From contig JAGNIV010000031.1 of NCBI GenBank assembly GCA_018001015.1, forward strand, positions 1 through 32,509: DNA of 32,509 nt. The letters run 5' to 3'. The DNA comes from Phenylobacterium sp. (lineage in GTDB: Bacteria > Pseudomonadota > Alphaproteobacteria > Caulobacterales > Caulobacteraceae). Shown here piece by piece: positions 5,054-32,509 of the stretch. Under the pieces are notes generated by a model. That model searched no databases. It was not told where the DNA came from and saw only the letters and a program-made list of their open reading frames with translations. Within the stretch, counting starts at the first letter, position 1. Every line of letters begins with the position of its first letter. The position numbers and the translations under genes are program-made.

Positions 5054-7225
5054 ATGCACATGCTCCCACGCGCCGTCGCCCTGATCGCCCTGATCGCTTT
5101 CGGCTCGCCCGCCGCCGCGACCGAGAGCGCCAGGTGGGAGAGTCAGGCGGCGCGGATCCGCATTGTCCGCGACGACTGGGGCATCGCCCACGTGCGCGGC
5201 AAGACCGACGCTGATGCCGTGTTCGGTATGGTCTATGCCCAGGCCGAGGACGACTTCAACCGGGTCGAGACCAACTACCTCAACGCCCTGGGCAGGCTGG
5301 CCGAGGCCGAGGGCGAGAAGGCGGTCTGGCAGGACCTGCGGATGAAGCTGTTCATCGACCCCGCCGAACTCAAGGCGCAGTACGCGGAAAGCCCGGCCTG
5401 GCTGCGGACCCTGATGACCGCCTGGGCCGACGGCCTGAACTACTACCTGGCCACCCACCCCAAGGTGACGCCGCGGGTGATCACCCACTTCGAGCCCTGG
5501 ATGGCGCTAGCCTTCACCGAAGGTAGCATCGGCGGCGATATCGAGAGCATATCCCTCACCCAGCTTGAGGCCTTCTATGGCGGCCGCCAGACCTCGACGG
5601 CGCAGGAGCAGGTGGCGCTGGCCCGGTTCAAGGAGCCCTCGGGTTCGAACGGCTTCGCCATCGCGCCGGCCAACACCACGGCGGGTCACGCCCTCTTGCT
5701 GATCAACCCGCACACCAGCTTCTTCTTCCGCTCCGAGCAGCAAGTGACCAGCGACGAGGGGCTGAATGTCTATGGGGCGGCGACCTGGGGGCAGTTCTTC
5801 ATCTACCAGGGCTTCAACGCCACGGCCGGCTGGATGCACACCTCCAGCGGGGTCGACGTCATCGATGAATTCGCCGAGACCATGTCCGGAGACAGGCTCA
5901 CCTATCGCTACGGGACCGAGGACCGCCCGGTCACCACCAAGCTCATCACCGTCCCCTATCGCGCCGCCGATGGCTCGATGAAGAGCAGGACCTTCACGGT
6001 CTATCGCACCCACCACGGCCCCATCGTCCGCGAGGCCGACGGCAAGTGGATCAGCGTCGCCCTGATGCACCGGCCCATCGCCGCGCTCAGCCAGTCGTTC
6101 CTGCGCACCAAGGCGACCGACTACGCCAGCTACATGCGGGTCATGGCCCTGCAGGCCAACTCTTCGAACAACACCCTGTTCGCCGACGCCAAGGGCGAGG
6201 TTGCCTATCTGCATCCGCAGTTCATTCCCCGGCGCGACGACCGGTTCGACTATCGCGCGCCGGTGGACGGCGCCGACCCGGCCACCGACTGGAAGGGGCT
6301 GCACGCGCTGGACGAGGCGCCGCGCCTGCTGAATCCGCCGAACGGCTGGATCACCAACACCAACAACTGGCCCTACTCAGCAGCCGGCGCCTTCAGCCCC
6401 AAACGGGCGGACTTCCCCCGCTACATGGATTCAGCCGGCGAGAACCCGCGCGGGATCCACGCCATCGCGGTGTTGGAGGACCGCAAGGACTTCACCCTGC
6501 CGGGCCTGATCTCGGCGGCCTACGACCCGCACCTGACGGCCTTCGACAAGCTGATCCCGCCTCTGCTGGCGGCCTACGACGCGACACCGGCCACCAACCC
6601 CTTGAAGGCCAGGCTCGCCGACCAGATCGCCCTGCTGCGGAGCTGGGACCGACGGTCGTCGGCGGAGTCGCCCGCCACCTCCCTGGCGGTGTTCTGGGGC
6701 GAGCAGCTTTGGAGCGAGGTGGCGGTTGCCGCCCGTGCCGCGCGGCGGCCGGTCTATGACGACATGGTCAGCCAAACGACCGCCGAGCAGAAGCTTGCCG
6801 CCCTGTCGGCGGCCTCGGACCGGCTGGCGGCGGACTTCGGGACCTGGAAGACGCCCTGGGGCGAGATCAACCGCTTTCAGCGGCTGACCGGTGACCTGGT
6901 GCAGCCCTTCACCGACGCGGGTCCCAGCCTTCCCGTGCCCTTCGCCTCGGCCCAATGGGGCTCGCTGGCCTCCTTCGGGGCGGGCCGCAAGCCGGGGACC
7001 AAGCGATACTACGGGACCAGCGGCAACAGCTTCGTGGCGGTGGTGGAGTTCGGCGACAAGGTCCGCGCTCGGGCGGTGACGGCGGGCGGGGAGAGCGGCG
7101 ATCCGGCCTCCAGGCACTTCAACGACCAGGCGGCCCGCTACGCCGCGGGCGACCTGCGGGAGGTCTACTTCTATCCCGAGCAGCTGGCCGGCCACACGGA
7201 GCGCACCTATCGGCCGGGGCGTTGA
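5054..7225 (+). CDS. Penicillin/AHL acylase-family Ntn-hydrolase
   Basis: This 723-residue precursor has an N-terminal signal peptide (about residues 1-22, ending SPAAA), so it should act in the periplasm. The family is made as one chain that cleaves itself into alpha and beta subunits, and the new N-terminal Ser of the beta chain is nucleophile. Here the site is KEPSG/SNGFAIAP, with Ser198 predicted catalytic. The motif DDWGIAHVRG near residue 40 and YAQAEDDF at 61-68 are typical of the alpha chain. The beta chain has INPHTSFFF and NTNNWPYS, the latter carrying the conserved oxyanion Asn. Family members remove acyl chains from penicillins, N-acyl-homoserine lactones or lipopeptides; which one applies is not decidable here. 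Quorum-signal or antibiotic deacylation fits the surrounding hydrolases. The ribosome binding site is weak; ATG 5060 is an alternative start. Confidence 0.87.
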   Translation: MHMLPRAVALIALIAFGSPAAATESARWESQAARIRIVRDDWGIAHVRGKTDADAVFGMVYAQAEDDFNRVETNYLNALGRLAEAEGEKAVWQDLRMKLFIDPAELKAQYAESPAWLRTLMTAWADGLNYYLATHPKVTPRVITHFEPWMALAFTEGSIGGDIESISLTQLEAFYGGRQTSTAQEQVALARFKEPSGSNGFAIAPANTTAGHALLLINPHTSFFFRSEQQVTSDEGLNVYGAATWGQFFIYQGFNATAGWMHTSSGVDVIDEFAETMSGDRLTYRYGTEDRPVTTKLITVPYRAADGSMKSRTFTVYRTHHGPIVREADGKWISVALMHRPIAALSQSFLRTKATDYASYMRVMALQANSSNNTLFADAKGEVAYLHPQFIPRRDDRFDYRAPVDGADPATDWKGLHALDEAPRLLNPPNGWITNTNNWPYSAAGAFSPKRADFPRYMDSAGENPRGIHAIAVLEDRKDFTLPGLISAAYDPHLTAFDKLIPPLLAAYDATPATNPLKARLADQIALLRSWDRRSSAESPATSLAVFWGEQLWSEVAVAARAARRPVYDDMVSQTTAEQKLAALSAASDRLAADFGTWKTPWGEINRFQRLTGDLVQPFTDAGPSLPVPFASAQWGSLASFGAGRKPGTKRYYGTSGNSFVAVVEFGDKVRARAVTAGGESGDPASRHFNDQAARYAAGDLREVYFYPEQLAGHTERTYRPGR

Positions 7226-7269
7226 GGTTTGGGCGGCGCATGAAGTGGTTCTGCGGGTTGTCAGGGCGT

Positions 7270-7283
7270 TGACACCGGTGTCA
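7270..7283. promoter_or_regulatory. Perfect 14-bp palindrome upstream of ppc
   Basis: TGACACCGGTGTCA is a perfect palindrome ending 23 bases before the ppc start. Its form (TGACA half-sites around a central C/G pair) resembles operators of LacI/GalR-family sugar regulators. Lying this close to the start codon, it would fit repression at the promoter or early transcript. The regulator is not in the window. Confidence 0.45.
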
Positions 7284-7306
7284 TAAGCGTTTGTCGAGAG
7301 GTCGCC

Positions 7307-9991
<2,685 letters not shown>

Positions 9992-24779: not shown

Positions 24780-24858
24780 CGTCCGACCATAGCCGCGCGG
24801 CCTAGGGACAGGCCAGACGGAACTCCAGGCCCGCCTTCGGGGCGCCTGAGGAAGGCGC

Positions 24859-24884
24859 CGCGGCGGGGGCGCCGCCCCGCCGCG
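24859..24884 (-). terminator. Strong G/C hairpin after btuB
   Basis: CGCGGCGGGG (24859-24868) and CCCCGCCGCG (24875-24884) form a perfect 10-bp stem with a 6-base loop, 14 bases after the btuB stop. A second short hairpin, GGCGCC-N7-GGCGCC (24841-24859), follows. No U-tract is visible. The same 118-base gap must also hold the promoter of the galactose operon. Confidence 0.55.
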
Positions 24885-24897
24885 AACCCTTATCGCA

Positions 24898-26877
24898 TCA
24901 GAACCTGGCGCGCACGCCGAGGGTGGCGGCGCGGCCCGGAGTTCCGTAGTTGCGGACCGTTTCGTAGCGGTCGTCGAAGACGTTCTCGACCCGGCCATAG
25001 ACCTCCAGGGTGTCGTTCACCGGGTAGGCCGCCCGCAGGTCCAGCAGGGTGTGGCTCTGCAGGGTGTAGCTGCCGGCGGCGTTGTCGGAGCTGGCCCCGA
25101 CGTGGCGTATGTCGGCCGTCGTGGAGAGACCAAACCCCCATTGGTAGGTGGCCGCCAGGTTGGCCTGGTGCTCGGGCCGGCGGGCCAGTTGCTTGCCCAG
25201 GTTGGCGCCCGCAGAACGGTTCTCCGTATGGGTCCAGGTGTAGTTGGCGTCGAGGCTGAAGGGGCCCCGTTCGACCGCCGCCACCAGCTCAACCCCATGC
25301 GCGGCGGTCTTTGCGGTGTTGTCGTAGTAGCCGAACCGGGCCACGCCGCCGGGGTTGCAGAGGGGCGTCAGGGACCCGAAGGCGCAGGAGACGAAGTCGA
25401 TCTGGTTCTGCGTCTCGCGGCCGAAGGCCGTCGCCGCCACCACCAGCCAACCGTCACCGACCGTGTGCTCGACACCGGCGTCCCAGGCGTCGGCCTGCTC
25501 GGGTTTCAGCCCCAGGTTCCCGTAGCTGCTATAGAGCTGGTAGAGGGTCGGGGCCTTGAATCCTTGGCCGAAACTGGCGCGCAGGACGGTTGCGTCGCCA
25601 ACGGACCAGGCGGCCGAGACCTGCCCCAGGGTGTGGTCGCCGAAGGTGTCGTGGCGGTCGCGGCGCAGGCCGACCGTGACCGACAGGTGATCGCCGAGGT
25701 CCCCACGAACCTGGGCATAGAGGCTGTCGATCCCCGCCTTGGCCGTCGCGGTGGGCGGGTTGGGCGCGAAGGCCGAGGGCGAGCGGGTGCGGAAGCTGGC
25801 CTGCTCGCGCTCGGCGCCGAAGGTGGCGGTCCAGGCCGGCGCGATCTCCAGGCTCCCCTGGTACTCCCAGCGCCGGTTGCGGCCCGTCGAATCGAAGGTA
25901 ACCGGTGTCACGGCCTGGGCCGGGTCATAGTTCAGGCTGTCGGAGTTGGTGTAGCCGAAGGCCAGGCGGTTGCGGAACCGGCCCTCGAGCAACGCGACGT
26001 TCAGGCCGGCATAGGCCACCAGCTCCTCGATCTCCGCGTACTGGCCGGTGTCGGCGAACAGATAGGCCGGGGCCGGGAAGCCGTCGAAGTCGTTGCGGCT
26101 GTCGGTATAGACCGCCCGCAGGTCCAGCGAGAGGGCGCCCGAGGCGATCACCCGGGCCCGGCCGCTGACCGCCGTGCTGCGATAGCCGTCGTCCTCGGCC
26201 CCGCCGGCCACGGCCGAGACCCCGTCGGTCTGGTCATGGCTGGCCGACAGCCGCCAGACCAGGTGGTCGCTGATCCCGCCGGCCGCGCCACGCACATAGG
26301 CGCTGTTCTGCGTGCCCACCTCGGCCTGCAGCCCGCCCTCCAGGGCCGAGGTCGGCTCGGCGGTGACGATGTTGATCACCCCGCCGATCGCCTGGCTGCC
26401 CCACAGGGTCGACTGGGCGCCGCGCAGGATCTCGATGCGGGCCACGTCGCCGGTCAGCAGGTTGGCGAAGTTGTAGCCGCCGCCGGGCGCCGAGGGGTCG
26501 TTGATCTTCACCCCGTCCACCACGGCCACGGTCTGGTCGCCCTCCGCCCCGCGGATGCGCAGGGTGGTGACGCCCCCCGGCCCGCCGTTGCGGGAATAGG
26601 CGACGCCGACGGTGCGCGAGACCAGGTCGGAGACCAGCAGCTGCTGGCTGGCCTCGATGTCGGCGGCGGTCAGCACGGTGACCGACTGACCGACCTTGGC
26701 GCGTTCCTGCGGCCCGCGAGCGGCGGTGACGATCAGTTCGCTGACCGGATTGGCCGCCTCGGCGCCGGCGGCGTCGGGCGTGGGCGCCACGGGCGCGAGC
26801 GCCCGGTCATCGTCGGCGAGCGCGGGAGATGCGCAGAACACGGCCAGGGCCGCGGTGGCGTGGAGATAGGTCTTCAT
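24898..26877 (-). CDS. btuB: TonB-dependent vitamin B12 receptor
   Basis: This 659-residue outer-membrane receptor has a signal peptide (about residues 1-21, ending SPALA) and a TonB box region (PVSELIVTAAR). The plug domain contains TLRIRGAEGDQTVAVVDGVKIND and VARIEILRGAQSTLWGSQAIGGVINIVT. A beta-barrel follows and ends in a terminal Phe (RARF), as porin-like barrels do. BtuB takes up cobalamins with energy from TonB. The assignment to B12, rather than another siderophore, is fixed by the cobalamin riboswitch just upstream. The start ATG 26877 has AAGGGG eight bases before it; the frame to 27174 merely translates the riboswitch. No other B12 uptake or synthesis genes are next to it. Confidence 0.94.
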   Translation of the reverse strand: MKTYLHATAALAVFCASPALADDDRALAPVAPTPDAAGAEAANPVSELIVTAARGPQERAKVGQSVTVLTAADIEASQQLLVSDLVSRTVGVAYSRNGGPGGVTTLRIRGAEGDQTVAVVDGVKINDPSAPGGGYNFANLLTGDVARIEILRGAQSTLWGSQAIGGVINIVTAEPTSALEGGLQAEVGTQNSAYVRGAAGGISDHLVWRLSASHDQTDGVSAVAGGAEDDGYRSTAVSGRARVIASGALSLDLRAVYTDSRNDFDGFPAPAYLFADTGQYAEIEELVAYAGLNVALLEGRFRNRLAFGYTNSDSLNYDPAQAVTPVTFDSTGRNRRWEYQGSLEIAPAWTATFGAEREQASFRTRSPSAFAPNPPTATAKAGIDSLYAQVRGDLGDHLSVTVGLRRDRHDTFGDHTLGQVSAAWSVGDATVLRASFGQGFKAPTLYQLYSSYGNLGLKPEQADAWDAGVEHTVGDGWLVVAATAFGRETQNQIDFVSCAFGSLTPLCNPGGVARFGYYDNTAKTAAHGVELVAAVERGPFSLDANYTWTHTENRSAGANLGKQLARRPEHQANLAATYQWGFGLSTTADIRHVGASSDNAAGSYTLQSHTLLDLRAAYPVNDTLEVYGRVENVFDDRYETVRNYGTPGRAATLGVRARF

Positions 26878-27044
26878 GGGTCTTGCCCCTTCCATCTGAC
26901 GACGGGCCGCGGGCAAGCGGGGGCCGGCAGCCAGGCGCCAGGACGCACGGTCGCCAGCCCACGCCGACACGCGGACCAACAAACGTCGCCTCTCGGGACA
27001 ATCCCCGTTCGCTCGGCGCACCCCGGCCGGTCGAAGGACGACTG

Positions 27045-27210
27045 CGTCAGGCAGGTCTCCTGGCTCACGGGTCAGCACCCATTGCGCGCCGCCTTCCCAG
27101 ACCCCGAGGGACCCAGTGGCTGATGGCGCGCGGGCTCGCCGCTTACAGTTGCGGGGGCAGCCCAGGTTTTCCACCTGAGTTCCCTTTTCATCCCCTCACG
27201 GGGAACCTGT
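27045..27210 (-). promoter_or_regulatory. Cobalamin (B12) riboswitch
   Basis: Reading the minus strand, the leader begins with a GGTTCCCC...GGGGATGAAAAGGGAA stem. It continues with the core GCTGCCCCCGCAACTGTAAG and GCGGCGAGC, then the B12-box GCCACTG (27115-27121), GGGAAGG, and the closing TGACCCGTGAGCCAGGAG followed by ACCTGCC. These are the hallmark blocks of the cobalamin aptamer. When adenosylcobalamin binds, such elements turn off the downstream gene, here btuB. About 167 bases separate the aptamer from the btuB start and would house the expression platform; whether it acts on translation or on termination is not clear. Confidence 0.97.
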
Positions 27211-27219
27211 CGCAGGGGG

Positions 27220-27249
27220 GGTTTAGGGCGAAGGCGGGGGCGGGGTCAA
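27220..27249 (-). promoter_or_regulatory. Putative btuB promoter
   Basis: On the minus strand TTGACC (27249-27244), an 18-base spacer and TAAACC (27225-27220) match -35 and -10 elements. CCTAAACC is close to the Caulobacter housekeeping -10 (GCTANAWC). Transcription would begin within a few bases of the riboswitch 5' stem, which supports the call. Confidence 0.55.
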
Positions 27250-27298
27250 TGTGGGGGGGGATCGCGGAGCTAGAGCAGCCCCCGATCAAACTACTTTT

Positions 27299-27625
27299 TC
27301 AGTCGGCCCTTGGGAGCCGGGTGGGGCATTTATAGGCGTTGCCGAGCGTGTTGCTGCCCATCGGGCCGGAAGAGCTGTCGAGAAGCACGACATGCGTCGC
27401 GCCGAGCGCGAGCGCTCGCTTCTTCAGGCCGTCGCGCGCTCGATTATAGGCCATATTGGTGACTAGCCCGCCCCAAGCGGATGAACCCTTCACCTCGCCG
27501 AGATACTCGCAACCAGCGACGGAGGACTCATCCTTCACAATGATGATTTCGGTCGCTTGAGCGGCGAGCGCCGCACCAGCTATCATTGCAGCACACGCTG
27601 CTGCCATGGACACTTTGTGAACCAT
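27299..27625 (-). CDS. Small secreted DUF4156-like protein
   Basis: This 108-residue protein has a signal peptide (about residues 1-22, [18 protein letters not shown]). A compact domain follows: [14 protein letters not shown], then [23 protein letters not shown], and a C-terminal NAYKCP. The pattern of a Gly-Glu-Val strand, an Asn-x-Ala-Arg helix, LGATHVV and a final Cys is that of DUF4156-like envelope proteins of unknown role. The start is ATG 27625, or 27607 if the shorter signal peptide is used. The upstream sequence lies inside the Argonaute remnant, which is read in the opposite direction, so its promoter must lie within that remnant. That suggests the two were brought together by rearrangement. 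Confidence 0.7.
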
Positions 27626-28330
27626 CCCGATCCACGGCTCGGCCTCTTTGAGGCCGGGCCGCTGCAGGCCTTCGCAGGCGATGTGATCAAGGTGGGCGTT
27701 GTCGGCAGCGCGAAGACAATCGAGGACACGCGCAAGTTCTTCGACGCCGCCAAGGGCGGTTTCGAGGGTATGTCGGAGAAGCACCCCAACCTGCATCCAG
27801 CCTTCCCCGGCCTCACCAATCAAAACCCCTACCGATGCCGGTTCGAGATAGAGGAAGGGGCCGCTCTCGCTCTGTCCCAGGCGCGTATTGAGAAGATCAC
27901 CAAGGAGCCGAACCATCAGAAGGCCGTGGAACTAGCCGTCGGCGAGATCATGGACCAGCTCCGCGCCATGGACGAAAGCGGCGACAGGCCTCACGTCGCC
28001 ATCGTCGCCTTGCCCGTCGCCCTTATCGAGCGGGTGTGGAACGCCAAGGTCGATTCCAAAGGGTCTCTCGAAAAGGACGACAGCAGCGGCTCCGACGCGC
28101 CGAACTTCCGCGGCATGCTCAAGGCCAAGGCCATGGGGATTAGCTTCCCGATCCAAATTGTCTGGGAAGACGTCGTAGACGCGAGGGCGAAGATTCCACG
28201 GAAGGTCAAGGAGACCAGCGCCCGCAAAATCCAGGACCCTGCCGGCATCGCCTGGAACCTGCTCAGCACCCTCTACTACAAGGGAAGCGGCCGCATCCCG
28301 TGGCGACGGATGCCGCGCGAGGGCGAGTAG
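27617..28330 (+). pseudogene. Truncated prokaryotic Argonaute (MID and start of PIWI)
   Basis: The 237 codons match the first half of a short prokaryotic Argonaute. [13 protein letters not shown] is the MID entry motif (DPRxGLxxxGP), and [19 protein letters not shown] is its first Rossmann strand-helix. HPAFPGL follows, then [17 protein letters not shown]. The end, [21 protein letters not shown], is the PIWI block usually written AWxxxxALYYKAGGxPW. Intact short forms run to about 450-500 residues; here a TAG at 28328-28330 ends the frame right after this block, so most of PIWI is lost. The next in-frame codons read Ala-Thr-Cys, which would fit the strand that normally follows, then lose similarity. 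No TIR/Sir2-APAZ or nuclease partner gene is next to it. The start is unclear (GTG 27617 or upstream, overlapping the opposite gene). It is probably a non-functional remnant of a defence gene. Confidence 0.7.
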
Positions 28331-28483
28331 GCGACCTGCACTTCTGTACGTATCCTCAGACTATTCGCGACCACCGTCTATCGGCCCTGCGACGACGTCA
28401 CAACTCTGCGCCGCGAAACGGAGGCCCGAGAGCGATCGTAGTGGAGCCCAGCGCGAACTGACTGAATACCGGACCGGACACCC

Positions 28484-28816
28484 ATGCCCACTCTCGCCAC
28501 CTGCCACTGCTCTGCTGTCCACCTCACCTGCGATCCCGCGCCGGTGGAGGTGACCGAGTGCACCTGCTCCATCTGCCGGCGCTATGGGGTGCTGTGGGCC
28601 TATTATGAGCCGTCCCAGGTGCGGATCGAGGGTGCGGCCACCGAGGTCTATGAGTGGGATGACCGGTCGATCCGGTTTCATCGCTGCGTCGCCTGCGGCT
28701 GCGTCACCCACTGGAGCGCCAAGGACTCGGCGGTGAACCGGATGGGGGTGAAGGCTGATGGACCTGGAGGTCCTGGCTGGGCCCCGCGTGCGGCATCTGG
28801 AGGGGGCGGGCGGTAA
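28484..28816 (+). CDS. GFA/CENP-V-family zinc protein with frameshifted C-terminus
   Basis: This 110-residue protein has the GFA (glutathione-dependent formaldehyde-activating-like) zinc motifs: CHC (Cys7, Cys9), CTCSIC (Cys26, Cys28, Cys31) and CVACGC (Cys68, Cys71, Cys73), with the FHRC and HWSAKD segments. After RMGVKA the frame turns into a Gly/Pro-rich tail. The usual C-terminal segment, MDLEVLAGPRVRHLEGAG, appears in another frame from ATG 28758. A 5-base deletion near 28751-28757 would explain this (normal homologues read about N-A-R-L-M-D there). The zinc-binding core is intact but the last strand is lost, so the protein may be unstable. Most GFA proteins have no proven formaldehyde role. 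Confidence 0.75.
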   Translation: MPTLATCHCSAVHLTCDPAPVEVTECTCSICRRYGVLWAYYEPSQVRIEGAATEVYEWDDRSIRFHRCVACGCVTHWSAKDSAVNRMGVKADGPGGPGWAPRAASGGGGR

Positions 28817-28852
28817 CTGGAGGCCCAAGCGGCGGGCGGCTTGCCCTCTGGC

Positions 28853-29197
28853 CCGAGGCGGAGGTCATGGGTCCTCGGGACAAGCCCGAGGATGACGGTT
28901 CAGGGGCTCGGGCCGGGGACGCGGCTGCGGCGGCCGGAGGTCCGCACCGCCCCTGCATCCGGACGCGGCCCGGCGCCGTACCGAAAGCATGTCGAGGGGA
29001 GCATGAGCATGGCGAATCCCGCCCAGGTGACGGTCTGGTATGACGGCGACTGTCCGCTGTGCCGCCGGGAGATCGCGGCGCTGCGGGGGCTGGATCGCAA
29101 GGCGCGGATCGCCTTTGTCGATCTGTCGATCGGCCTGCCCTGCCCGCTGGACCGGGACGCGATGATCGCGCGGCTGCACGCCCAGGAGGCCGGCGGG
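28853..29197 (+). repeat. 345-bp direct repeat, copy 1
   Basis: Bases 28853-29197 match 29658-30002 with about nine substitutions and no gaps (constant offset of 805). The unit holds a CCTCGGG-ACAAG-CCCGAGG hairpin, the 5' leader and the first 65 codons of a DUF393 gene. The copy ends abruptly at 29197, where the sequence turns unrelated. Confidence 0.9.
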
Positions 29198-29227
29198 AGT
29201 TACGGTGACACTGTACGAATTGCCTAA
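29003..29227 (+). pseudogene. Truncated DUF393 (DCC thiol-oxidoreductase) gene
   Basis: The first 65 codons equal, with three or so changes, the DUF393 protein at 29808-30209, including the DCPLC (DxxCxxC-type) motif. After codon 65 the frame runs into foreign sequence (SYGDTVRIA) and stops, giving 74 residues instead of 133. The 3' half of the domain is missing, so this is a broken duplicate. A ribosome binding site (GAGGGGAG) is still present, so a short product could be made. Confidence 0.8.
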
Positions 29228-29299
29228 AGCAGGTGGGTTGACGCCGCCCTTGCCGGCTATGCCGTCGCACCGAGCCTGAAAACCCCCTAGCTTGACCGC

Positions 29300-29656
29300 A
29301 TGAAGTTCCTCCGGCCCTTCGCCCTGATCCTGCTGGCGCCTTGTCTCGCCACGGCGGTGCTTTCGGAGGTCGTGTTCCACGAGGTGAGCCGTGCGAGCTT
29401 TGTCGCCCTGCCCTTCGCGATCCTTGGAACGGCGGCGGTGGCGACGGCTTGCGGCTGGGTGGTGGAGGCCGGCTGGGTGCGCTGGTTCGCCTTGGTCTTC
29501 ACGGTCGCCTTGGGCGCCGTGCTGGGCGCCGTGCTGGGCCTGCTCAGCGGAACGGACGACACGATGCTCTTCGGGGTGGTCTATGGGAGCGGCTGCGCGG
29601 CGGCCTGGGTCCTGCTCGACCTGACCGTCCCGAGGCGGCGGCGCTCCGACCTCTGA
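29300..29656 (+). CDS. Small four-helix membrane protein, unknown function
   Basis: I do not recognise this 118-residue protein. It has about four hydrophobic segments: residues 5-25, 32-55, 60-83 and 90-108. It ends in a basic tail, VPRRRRSDL. No motif points to a function. The gene sits exactly between the two copies of the 345-bp repeat, and its stop is one base before copy 2, so it belongs to the 460 bases that separate the copies. The ribosome binding site is weak. The frame is G/C-rich in codon third positions, which supports real coding. Confidence 0.55.
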   Translation: MKFLRPFALILLAPCLATAVLSEVVFHEVSRASFVALPFAILGTAAVATACGWVVEAGWVRWFALVFTVALGAVLGAVLGLLSGTDDTMLFGVVYGSGCAAAWVLLDLTVPRRRRSDL

Positions 29657-29657
29657 T

Positions 29658-30002
29658 CCGAGGCGGAGATCATGGGTCCTCGGGACAAGCCCGAGGATGA
29701 CGGTTCAGGGGCTCGGGCCGGGGACGCGGCTGCGGCGGCCGGAGGTCCGCGCCACCCCTGCATCCGGACGCGGCCCGGCGCCGTACCGAAAGCATGTCGA
29801 GGGGAGCATGAGCATGGCGGAACCCGCCCAGGTGACGGTCTGGTATGACGGCGACTGCCCGCTGTGCCGCCGGGAGATCGCGGCGCTGCGGGGGCTGGAC
29901 CGCAAGGCGCGGATCGCCTTTGTCGATCTGTCGATCGGCCTGCCCTGTCCGCTGGACCGGGACGCGATGATCGCGCGGCTGCACGCCCAGGAGACCGGCG
30001 GG
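29658..30002 (+). repeat. 345-bp direct repeat, copy 2
   Basis: This is the second copy of the unit at 28853-29197. Here it continues smoothly into the intact DUF393 gene, so this copy is probably the original and copy 1 the derived, truncated one. Confidence 0.9.
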
Positions 30003-30209
30003 CCGCTGCTGTCGGGGGCCGAGGCCTTCGCCGCCATGTGGCGGGCGATCCCGGCGCTGCGGCCGTTCGGCGAGATGGCGCGGCGGCCCGGCGTGCTGGG
30101 GCGGCTGGAACGTCTCTATATCGCCTTCCTGCGGGTGCGTCCGCTGCTGCAGGGCCTGCTGGGCGGACGGCGATCGCGGCCGGAGGCGCCGCGCCGGGCG
30201 CGGGTATGA
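29808..30209 (+). CDS. DUF393 (DCC-family) thiol-disulfide oxidoreductase-like protein
   Basis: This 133-residue protein has the DCC signature near its N-terminus: VWYDGDCPLCRREI, with Cys17 and Cys20 spaced as a CxxC pair in a thioredoxin-like strand-turn. GAEAFAAMWRAIPALRPFG follows, and an amphipathic C-terminal half with Leu/Arg-rich helices. Members are predicted thiol-disulfide oxidoreductases, but few have known partners. Starts at 29808 and 29814 are both in frame; GAGGGGAG precedes them. Its stop overlaps the ATG of the FAD oxidoreductase gene (ATGA), so the two are coupled and may share a redox task. Confidence 0.88.
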   Translation: MSMAEPAQVTVWYDGDCPLCRREIAALRGLDRKARIAFVDLSIGLPCPLDRDAMIARLHAQETGGPLLSGAEAFAAMWRAIPALRPFGEMARRPGVLGRLERLYIAFLRVRPLLQGLLGGRRSRPEAPRRARV

Positions 30210-31153
30210 CCCCAAGGATCGCGGTGATCGGGGCGGGCCTGGCCGGACTGGCCTGCGCCACCGGCCTGCGCCGCGCCGGCTTCCCGGTGACGGTGTTGGA
30301 CAAGGGGCGCGGCCCGGGCGGGCGGATGTCGGCGCGGCGGGTGGAGACGCCCCGGGGCCAGGTGACCTTTGATCACGGCGCCCAGTATTTCACCGCCCGG
30401 GCCCCGGGCTTTCGGGCGCAGGTCGAGGCCTGGGCCCTGGACGGAGTGTGCGCGCCCTGGCCGGCGGCGGGGGACGACGCCTGGGTCGGGACCCCGGCCA
30501 TGAACGCGCCGATCCGCGCCCTGGCGCAGCCCCTGGAGGTGGTCTGGGGACGCCGGGTGGAGACCCTGGTCAGCCGCGCGAAGGGCTGGACCCTGATCGC
30601 CGAGGGCGCCGCGCCGCTGGAGGCCGAGATCGTCATCCTGGCCGTGCCGGCCGAACAGGCGGCCGATCTGCTGGACGCCCACGACCCGGCGGGCGCCCGC
30701 CTGGCCCGGGCGACCCCGGCGGCGCCCTGCTGGACGCTGATGGCGTCGTTCCCGGAACGCCTGCCGGTGGCGGCCGACATCTTCCGAAGCGATGGCGTGA
30801 TCGGCTGGGCGGCGCGCAACAACGCCAAGCCCGGGCGCGGCGACACCGAGGCCTGGGTGATCCAGGCCAGCCCCCAGTGGTCGGCGGCCCACCTTGAGGA
30901 CCCGGCCGAGGCGGTCGCCGGGGCCCTGGCGGGCGCTTTCGCCGAGCTGGCCGGCGTCGCCTGGCCCGCGCCCCTGTCGCTGGCCGCCCACCGCTGGCGC
31001 TACGCCCGCTCCGGGACGGCCGACGCCGAGGCCCTGTGGTCGCCGCAGGCCGGCCTGGGGATCTGCGGCGACTGGCTGATCGGGCCGCGGGTGGAGTGCG
31101 CCTGGCTGTCGGGCCAGGCCCTGGCCCGAAAGGTGGCGGCCGCCCCGGCGTGA
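30206..31153 (+). CDS. FAD-dependent amine oxidase/renalase-like oxidoreductase
   Basis: This 315-residue flavoprotein has an N-terminal Rossmann motif (IAVIGAGLAGLACA, GxGxxG at 9-14) with acidic Asp34 at the end of strand two. GPGGRMSARRVET, the FAD-contacting Gly-Gly-Arg-Met block, follows, then HGAQYFTAR. Near the C-terminus GICGDWLIGPRVECAWLSG is the second FAD-contacting motif. This is the pattern of bacterial renalase-like NAD(P)/FAD-dependent oxidoreductases. Substrates may be oxidised nicotinamide forms or amines. The start is ATG 30206, overlapping the DUF393 stop; a longer frame from 29864 is the DUF393 antiframe. No signal peptide is seen. Confidence 0.9.
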   Translation: MTPRIAVIGAGLAGLACATGLRRAGFPVTVLDKGRGPGGRMSARRVETPRGQVTFDHGAQYFTARAPGFRAQVEAWALDGVCAPWPAAGDDAWVGTPAMNAPIRALAQPLEVVWGRRVETLVSRAKGWTLIAEGAAPLEAEIVILAVPAEQAADLLDAHDPAGARLARATPAAPCWTLMASFPERLPVAADIFRSDGVIGWAARNNAKPGRGDTEAWVIQASPQWSAAHLEDPAEAVAGALAGAFAELAGVAWPAPLSLAAHRWRYARSGTADAEALWSPQAGLGICGDWLIGPRVECAWLSGQALARKVAAAPA

Positions 31154-31245
31154 ATCGCGCCCCGTCGCCCGACCACGCCGCGGCGAGACGGGGGGCGGGA
31201 AATCGGTATCATGGGGACGATGCGCCTAGGCGCGGGGGACCCTGC

Positions 31246-31836
31246 ATGGAACGCGACCGGCTGACGGCCTTCACCGACGGGGTGCTGGCGATCATCATCA
31301 CCATCATGGTGCTGGAGTTGCGGCCGCCGCATGGGGCGGGGTTTGAGGACCTGGTGGGGTTGCTGCCGGTGTTCCTGAGCTATGTGCTGAGCTTCATCTA
31401 CGTCGGCATCTACTGGAACAATCACCACCACTTCTTCCAGCTGGTGGAGACCGTCGACGGGGCGATCCTGTGGGCCAACCTGCACCTGCTGTTCTGGCTG
31501 TCGATGGTGCCGTTCACCACCGCCTGGATGGGGGAGAACCACTTCGCCCCGGCGCCCACGGCGCTGTACGGCGGCTCGCTGCTGATGGCGGCGGTGGCCT
31601 GGGTGATCATGCAGCGCCTGATCTTCCGGCGGCAGGGGGCGGGCTCGCCGTTGAAGGCCGCCCTGGGGCGCGACCTGAAGGGCAAGCTGTCGCCGGCGAT
31701 CTATGTCGCCGGGATCGCCCTGTCCTTCGTCAGCCCGCCGGCGGCCGCGGCCATGTACCTGGCCGTGGCCCTGATATGGCTGATCCCCGACAAGCGGGTG
31801 GAGGCCCATATCGAGAGCCACAATGCTCAGCCCTGA
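31246..31836 (+). CDS. TMEM175-family (DUF1211) ion-channel-like membrane protein
   Basis: This 196-residue protein has about six membrane segments. The first opens with the TMEM175 signature, here AFTDGVLAIIITIMVLEL; the usual FSD triplet is FTD (residues 9-11). NNHHHFF and WLSMVPFTTAWMG are also typical. Bacterial members are single-repeat proteins that form tetrameric, potassium-permeable channels with a hydrophobic gate rather than a normal selectivity filter. The Ser-to-Thr swap is conservative. ATG 31246 follows GGGGGA. Its end overlaps the start of the next gene by 14 bases. Confidence 0.88.
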   Translation: MERDRLTAFTDGVLAIIITIMVLELRPPHGAGFEDLVGLLPVFLSYVLSFIYVGIYWNNHHHFFQLVETVDGAILWANLHLLFWLSMVPFTTAWMGENHFAPAPTALYGGSLLMAAVAWVIMQRLIFRRQGAGSPLKAALGRDLKGKLSPAIYVAGIALSFVSPPAAAAMYLAVALIWLIPDKRVEAHIESHNAQP

Positions 31837-32188
31837 TCCGGAGGGCGTGCTGGCCCGGCTGCGGGGCCTGTGCCTGGCGCTGGCGCAGACCGACGAGGTG
31901 ATCAGCCACGGCATCCCGGCCTTTCGCGTGGCGGGCAAGATGTTCGCCTATTACCGCCACGACCATCACGGCGACGGGATGACCGTAGTCTGCGTGAAGA
32001 CCTCGGGGCGCGATGAGCAGGAGATGCTGATCGAGGCCGACGCCGACGTGTTCAGCAAGCCGGCCTATCTGTGGCCGTCGGGCTGGGTGGGGATGAGCCT
32101 GGCGGCGCCCGACTGGGAGCACGTGGCGGCGCGGCTGGCCACGAGCTGGCGGCTGGCGGCGCCGAAGCGGTTGGTGCGGGACCTCTAA
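31823..32188 (+). CDS. MmcQ/YjbR-family protein
   Basis: This 121-residue protein shows the MmcQ/YjbR pattern: ISHGIPAFRVAGKMFAYY near residues 27-44, VVCVKTS, and a C-terminal YLWPSGWVGMSL followed by a helix with VAARLATSWRLAAPKRLV. The fold is a CyaY-like alpha/beta module and is often annotated as DNA-binding, though the role is not proven. It starts inside the end of the TMEM175 gene, so the two are probably co-translated. Downstream lies only repeat sequence and an insertion element. Confidence 0.87.
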   Translation: MLSPDPEGVLARLRGLCLALAQTDEVISHGIPAFRVAGKMFAYYRHDHHGDGMTVVCVKTSGRDEQEMLIEADADVFSKPAYLWPSGWVGMSLAAPDWEHVAARLATSWRLAAPKRLVRDL

Positions 32189-32226
32189 CCCCTCCCCCGC
32201 TCCCTCAACCGCTCACCCCGGCGAAG

Positions 32227-32398
32227 GCCGGGGCCCAGATTCACCTCGGGCCTTCGATCAGGATTTCCCGTTCGTGTGGTTCGTGGACAATCTGATGGGT
32301 CTATCGGCGGCGCCAGCGCAAGAATTGGAACCACGAACCACACGAACCACACGAACGGGAGGCCAACTCCAACCGCCCGGCCTGAATCTGGGTCCCCT
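32227..32398. repeat. Large nested palindrome next to IS30 element
   Basis: Outer arms GGGGCCCAGATTCA (from about 32230) and TGAATCTGGGTCCCC (ending near 32396) differ by one base. Inside them, a 20-base arm at 32267-32286 (CCCGTTCGTGTGG start) is complementary to 32331-32359, where the unit CCACACGAA occurs twice. The 257 bases from 32189 to 32445 hold no gene, only this element and the left edge of the insertion sequence. Confidence 0.7.
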
Positions 32399-32416
32399 GA
32401 GTTCTCAAACGAAGTG

Positions 32417-32443
32417 CAACACCTTGCGTTGGCGGAGGTGTTG
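32417..32443 (+). promoter_or_regulatory. Hairpin over the transposase ribosome binding site
   Basis: CAACACCT (32417-32424) and AGGTGTTG (32436-32443) form a perfect 8-bp stem ending three bases before the transposase ATG. The right arm and the adjacent loop contain the GGAGG ribosome binding site. It could hold back translation of transcripts entering from outside (inference). Confidence 0.45.
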
Positions 32444-32445
32444 TC

Positions 32446-32509
32446 ATGGGACGGCTCTACGAGCAGCTCAGCCTTGAGGAGCGGTGCGAGATTTCCCGGC
32501 TACGTGGCT
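32446..32509 (+). CDS. IS30-family transposase, N-terminus (cut by window edge)
   Basis: The 21 visible codons begin MGRLYEQLSLEERCEISRL, the usual opening of IS30-type transposases (a YxxLSLEER...I helix that begins the N-terminal helix-turn-helix). GGAGG lies seven bases before ATG 32446. The catalytic DDE domain is beyond the window. Confidence 0.75.
   Translation, partial: MGRLYEQLSLEERCEISRLRG

Follow-up and report, generated by a model that had tools for sequence, protein, structure and literature searches.

The closest described system to the locus analysed here is NbaSPARDA, whose Argonaute (NbaAgo, from Novosphingopyxis baekryungensis; 485 residues; PDB 9jsb) has a solved structure. 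As described in PMC12205087, the MID domain of the Argonaute in the intact system holds the 5′ end of the guide RNA, and the guide-target duplex is held by the Argonaute PIWI domain together with the APAZ domain of the partner protein. Target binding leads to filament assembly, which switches on the DREN nuclease. The same source places the PIWI domain at residues 250-485 and lists further guide contacts in the C-terminal half of the protein (S447, N451 and R459); for MID it prints limits of 12-50, which we take to be a misprint. Short prokaryotic Argonautes (pAgos) that have lost a domain are already on record in a 2018 survey (PMC6299218), and the piece reported here resembles them in that respect. 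Unlike the six truncated pAgos described in that survey, which are without MID, it has a MID domain and no PIWI domain. In the accessible text of the open-access literature on truncated or remnant pAgos, or on pAgos in this bacterial group, we found no MID-only fragment.

The window, that is, the whole stretch of DNA analysed, is a contig of 32,509 nt (JAGNIV010000031.1) from a draft genome of Phenylobacterium sp. (GCA_018001015.1, 77 contigs). An earlier, sequence-only reading of it had proposed a short-pAgo remnant in an open frame of 237 codons at 27617-28330 (+), running from GTG to a TAG at 28328-28330, and the frame is present and reads as quoted. Its homology to pAgos is, by sequence comparison, far beyond chance. 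The PADLOC profile pAgo_I matches it at E 2e-58 over profile positions 18-226 of 455, and a phmmer search of PDB sequences aligns frame residues 2-237 to residues 20-255 of 9jsb with no gaps (390 bits, E 3e-116). Neither Pfam nor NCBIfam has a match for the remnant; an intact relative of this Argonaute, that of locus L008, is likewise missed by Pfam.

At the DNA level, the remnant occupies 27623-28329 (+), as delimited by blastn to L008 and in line with the 9jsb and PADLOC matches, so that only the first two codons of the frame and the last base of the TAG lie outside the homology. It comprises the codons for residues about 21-255 in NbaAgo numbering, which is nearly all of the MID domain. PADLOC, phmmer, blastn, the protein alignment and Foldseek agree that this is the MID domain of a SPARDA-clade Argonaute. 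The PIWI domain is absent from the same protein, the DNA homology stopping at 28329. A block of 20 residues that the sequence-only reading had assigned to PIWI turns out to be the end of MID, since residues 212-231 correspond to NbaAgo 230-249 and the PIWI domain starts at 250. The remnant is a member of the SPARDA Argonaute clade, and the Argonaute part itself is ordinary. An origin from SPARTA or SPARSA was considered and rejected, because the best matches in both the phmmer search of PDB and Foldseek are SPARDA Argonautes. We found no relatives of the remnant in viral contigs by tblastn, and none in phages.

A search of genome contigs gave 40 homologous loci, of which L008, from the Brevundimonas MAG Ess09-07, is nearest to the remnant (95% protein identity). 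The blastn match between the two is ungapped and sharp-ended, with 657 of 707 bases identical (92.9%), and the remainder of the 15.6 kb of L008 has no alignment to the window at E 0.01. Unlike the remnant, the L008 operon has a complete Argonaute of 485 aa, immediately preceded by a DUF4365 frame of 483 aa, which is the DREN-APAZ partner of SPARDA. The comparison with NbaSPARDA is similar: the remnant is homologous to NbaAgo over residues 20-255, whereas three parts are absent from its locus: approximately 20 residues at the N-terminus, the PIWI domain (250-485) and the DREN-APAZ partner gene.

The 3′ end of the homology coincides with the stop codon. In 40/40 relatives the codon at this position encodes tyrosine or phenylalanine and is followed by a well-conserved stretch, and the similarity of the window to these relatives drops at once after the TA of the stop. 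By manual count, L008 shares 5 and L018 shares 6 of the 10 bases that follow, compared with 93% inside the remnant, which places the end of homology at 28329 or no more than about 12 bases away; the protein match of the L008 Argonaute extends a few residues past the stop. Most simply, the TAG would belong to the junction. We rejected a point nonsense mutation as the only event, because agreement falls to 5-6 of 10 bases directly after the TA; a slightly later break combined with a point stop could also produce this pattern. Such a later break would leave the remnant verdict as it is, the PIWI half being absent in both cases; nor does the verdict hang on the TAG base call alone, since the stop sits where homology is lost.

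The rest of the system was sought elsewhere in the same genome and in relatives. When the full-length L008 Argonaute is used as the query, the draft genome that carries the remnant gives one match only, the remnant itself, over residues 19-260 and including one TAG, so neither the approximately 20 N-terminal residues nor the PIWI domain was found at another place. The L008 DREN-APAZ protein has no match in this genome; in a control, the same search found it in its source genome and, at 65% identity, in the genus genome G021. The sequence-only reading had noted that no APAZ, TIR or Sir2 partner stands beside the piece. The absence of a partner holds for the whole draft genome, and the partner to be expected here is DREN-APAZ (SPARDA), not TIR or Sir2. 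Because only MID is left, and neither a PIWI half nor DREN-APAZ was found in the genome, SPARDA would be unable to act here: guide-RNA-dependent DNA targeting with collateral nuclease activity is not expected without PIWI and DREN-APAZ.

The homologous loci show what is missing, and in relatives both the full-length gene and the partner that the sequence-only reading had suggested looking for were found, L008 being one example. A DREN-APAZ match is present in 41/41 loci; in L009, L020 and L047 it is split in two or three, and in some of the short loci it runs into the end of the contig. Length past the break was measured in 40 of them, the forty-first, L002, lying in an open frame of 623 codons. 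In 38/40, the Argonaute continues for 223-230 codons beyond the end of the remnant; the two others, L044 and L047, stop 38 and 51 codons beyond it, and in L037, L045 and L047 an interruption of the frame lies upstream of the remnant's end. With DREN-APAZ in every locus and 38 of 40 running on past the break, the piece is a remnant and not a member of a short family. In fact, the conserved short family that the sequence-only reading had itself named as the case against a remnant is not seen in the 41 loci: no second MID-only copy occurs among them, and a test for the same short length in several genomes came out against such a family, 38/40 being much longer. Among 101 genus genomes, a cut-off of E 0.001 leaves seven with a match to the remnant: this genome, G021 (70% identity) and five others (28-38%).

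On these sequence comparisons, we consider it highly likely that what remains here is a fragment of a SPARDA short Argonaute gene and that it no longer functions. In favor of this reading, the remnant ends at the equivalent of residue 255, and the PIWI domain of the solved relative starts at 250. Several features count against it. The cut falls near a domain boundary, the reading frame stays open over 235 codons, free of stops and frameshifts, and all eight guide-contacting residues checked are kept (equivalents of R183, K187, K240, W201, W159, F182, N181 and R221), as are five of six filament-interface residues, the exception being Q134, here R. A promoter-like sigma-70 match lies at 27557-27586 (+), 30 bases before the GTG at 27617, and agrees at 9 of 12 positions; it is the only one on the plus strand of 27200-28600 (1.4 kb), where shuffled sequences gave 0.2 ± 0.4, and as evidence for expression it is weak.

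Codon substitutions were compared across the window and 25 relatives, 15 of the 40 loci being left out. The remnant and L008 differ silently at 39 codons and by a residue at 11, which gives, by NG86, a dN of 0.0206, a dS of 0.286 and a dN/dS of about 0.07. Neutral evolution ever since the remnant and L008 diverged should have produced many more residue changes than this, so either the truncation is younger than most of the divergence or selection persists. At the 11 differing residues, the one commonest among the other 24 sequences is in the window once and in L008 three times, with neither carrying it in seven. In a branch-wise codon fit, fixing omega at 1 for the window branch is 2.4 log units worse than the best fit, and that branch then shrinks to 0.012; the best fit itself is degenerate on the L008 branch, and the fit favors neither reading. 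The intact frame and the low dN/dS fit a recent truncation and, as sequence patterns, would also fit retained function. Probably, most of the divergence from L008 is older than the truncation and the loss was recent.

Retained function would mean that the piece is a MID-only protein with one of two roles: binding guides, or acting as a dominant-negative decoy, which would insert itself at the MID-MID and MID-PIWI interfaces of an incoming SPARDA and so disrupt the filaments of that system. Support for it comes from the open frame, the conserved residues, the excess of silent over residue changes and the promoter-like match, and also from the predicted fold, given below. Against it stand the absence of a second MID-only copy in the 41 loci and of any SPARDA to regulate in the genome, and the loss of the guide contacts of the C-terminal half (S447, N451 and R459). 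Moreover, no ribosome-binding site was seen by eye before the GTG at 27617, and the start abuts that of the opposite-strand gene. We regard such a protein as very unlikely. In the bolder form of the idea, a SPARDA Argonaute would have been reduced to an independent guide-binding MID domain, still produced, whose role is to decoy or inhibit SPARDA systems brought in by plasmids or to sequester guide RNAs; this strikes us as extremely improbable. The 'minimal MID-only variant' that the sequence-only reading had offered as an alternative thus keeps its open frame, its guide-contacting residues and a promoter-like match, but lacks a second example.

AlphaFold2, supplied with the 24-sequence alignment also used for the protein comparison (window included), predicts a MID-like alpha/beta fold for the 237-residue frame with moderate confidence (mean pLDDT 69.5, pTM 0.71; 60 of 237 residues under 50). 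The top 22 Foldseek matches of this model are SPARDA Argonautes. The predicted structure, which the sequence-only reading had proposed as a check, is consistent with its pAgo assignment and adds little beyond the sequence match.

The remnant lies in a variable slot of 1.2 kb (27260-28480), delimited by blastn of window positions 24801-32509 against four relatives (G067, G008, G065 and G009; the slot of G065 is in locus L079, that of G009 in L081, and those of the other two in L094 and L095). At least four genus genomes have both flanks close together among the matches listed. On the left, the homology of the four ends at 27255-27260, and on the right it restarts at 28481-28489, at the start codon of a GFA gene (28484). 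Between these borders the content is unrelated in 4/4 relatives (12 bp in G008, 168 bp in G067, 4.1 kb in G065 and 4.9 kb in G009), in agreement with the patchy accessory region suggested from the sequence alone. Here the slot holds a DUF4156 gene, the Argonaute remnant and 151 bp (28330-28480) without a convincing relative: these bases have no plasmid match, no convincing relative in the genus genomes and, among the fetched loci, E 0.85 at best. The G+C content of the slot is 0.61-0.63, compared with 0.68-0.74 in 25000-27249.

A position of this kind suggests how the fragment may have arisen. Horizontal transfer would have brought a SPARDA operon, or part of one, into the slot, which has a cobalamin riboswitch on one side and the GFA gene on the other, and illegitimate recombination would then, recently, have removed the rest of the SPARDA genes; the defence system of which the remnant is left was probably acquired by transfer. 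An artefact of assembly, in which the 707-bp piece or its flanks were wrongly joined, has also to be weighed, because the genome is a draft in 77 contigs and both junctions are known from the assembly alone. The outer flanks, however, stand in the same order in four relatives whose slots also differ, and neither the missing part of the gene nor the partner was found on another contig, where a chimera formed within the genome should have left them. A chimera is accordingly most improbable. As a fragment, the piece is an ordinary trace of defence-gene turnover, which records the loss of a SPARDA system, probably a recent one, and by itself leaves the understanding of SPARDA unchanged.

On the left, the slot adjoins a cobalamin riboswitch at 27033-27225 (-; RF00174, 126.8 bits), upstream of a gene for a TonB-dependent receptor. 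The longest frame of that gene, 24898-27174 (-; PF00593 E 2.6e-50, PF07715 E 3.6e-21), overlaps the riboswitch, and its true start presumably lies downstream of it. We found no open-access paper on this slot. It carries different cargo in related species; we regard it as the most useful by-product of the analysis and as meriting a survey; slots like it are good places for seeking new defence genes. In G009, the slot (in L081) contains an 843-aa helicase matching the PADLOC candidate-defence family PDC-S28 (E 1e-266), followed downstream by three smaller frames at 6073-7678 (+): one STAS-like (DUF4325, above the Pfam cut-off), and one HATPase-like and one other with sub-threshold matches only. 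The G065 slot encodes a protein of 1292 aa (L079, 4123-8001, -) in which Pfam matches PIN-TPR-GreABC and, below the cut-off, TPR repeats. Its N-terminus by eye resembles a restriction endonuclease, and it has no PADLOC match; it is possibly an unlisted defence gene.

The DUF4156 gene beside the remnant (27299-27625, -) encodes 108 aa with a complete domain (PF13698, E 1.5e-9, profile positions 3-90 of 90) and, by eye, a signal-peptide-like start. It was found in this genome only, both among 101 genus genomes and among 299 family genomes (partly the same as the genus set), and in 3 of 385 class genomes including this one, the other two at E 2e-9 and 3e-4; it has no match on plasmids. Short DNA matches of this stretch in G012, G079 and G096 (35-42 bases, E 1e-5 to 9e-4) fall in different parts of the query and were taken as chance. 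The gene had been read as starting inside the remnant, which holds for the candidate ATG at 27625-27623, by at most 3 nt, but not for the one at 27607-27605, which is outside; only the mechanically longest frame, from 27916, reaches deep into it. The DNA upstream of the gene is now the Argonaute remnant, and the ATG at 27625-27623, if used, derives from it.

On the right, the GFA-domain gene (28484-28816, +; PF04828) has a 5-nt deletion relative to two relatives in the alignment that shifts its 3′ end, which bears out the frameshift noted before. Elsewhere, this gene has a stop in G067, and only 114 bp of it align in G008; from these alignments it seems to be decaying in several species. An IS30 element had also been listed among the flanks; no IS30 gene was found among the 20 window frames, a subset, that were scanned with Pfam. 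The duplication of DUF393 was confirmed: the beginning of a DCC1-like/DUF393 gene is present twice, at 28841-29227 (cut short) and 29697-30209. In G067, the stretches matching the two copies fall on overlapping DNA, as they would for a single copy.
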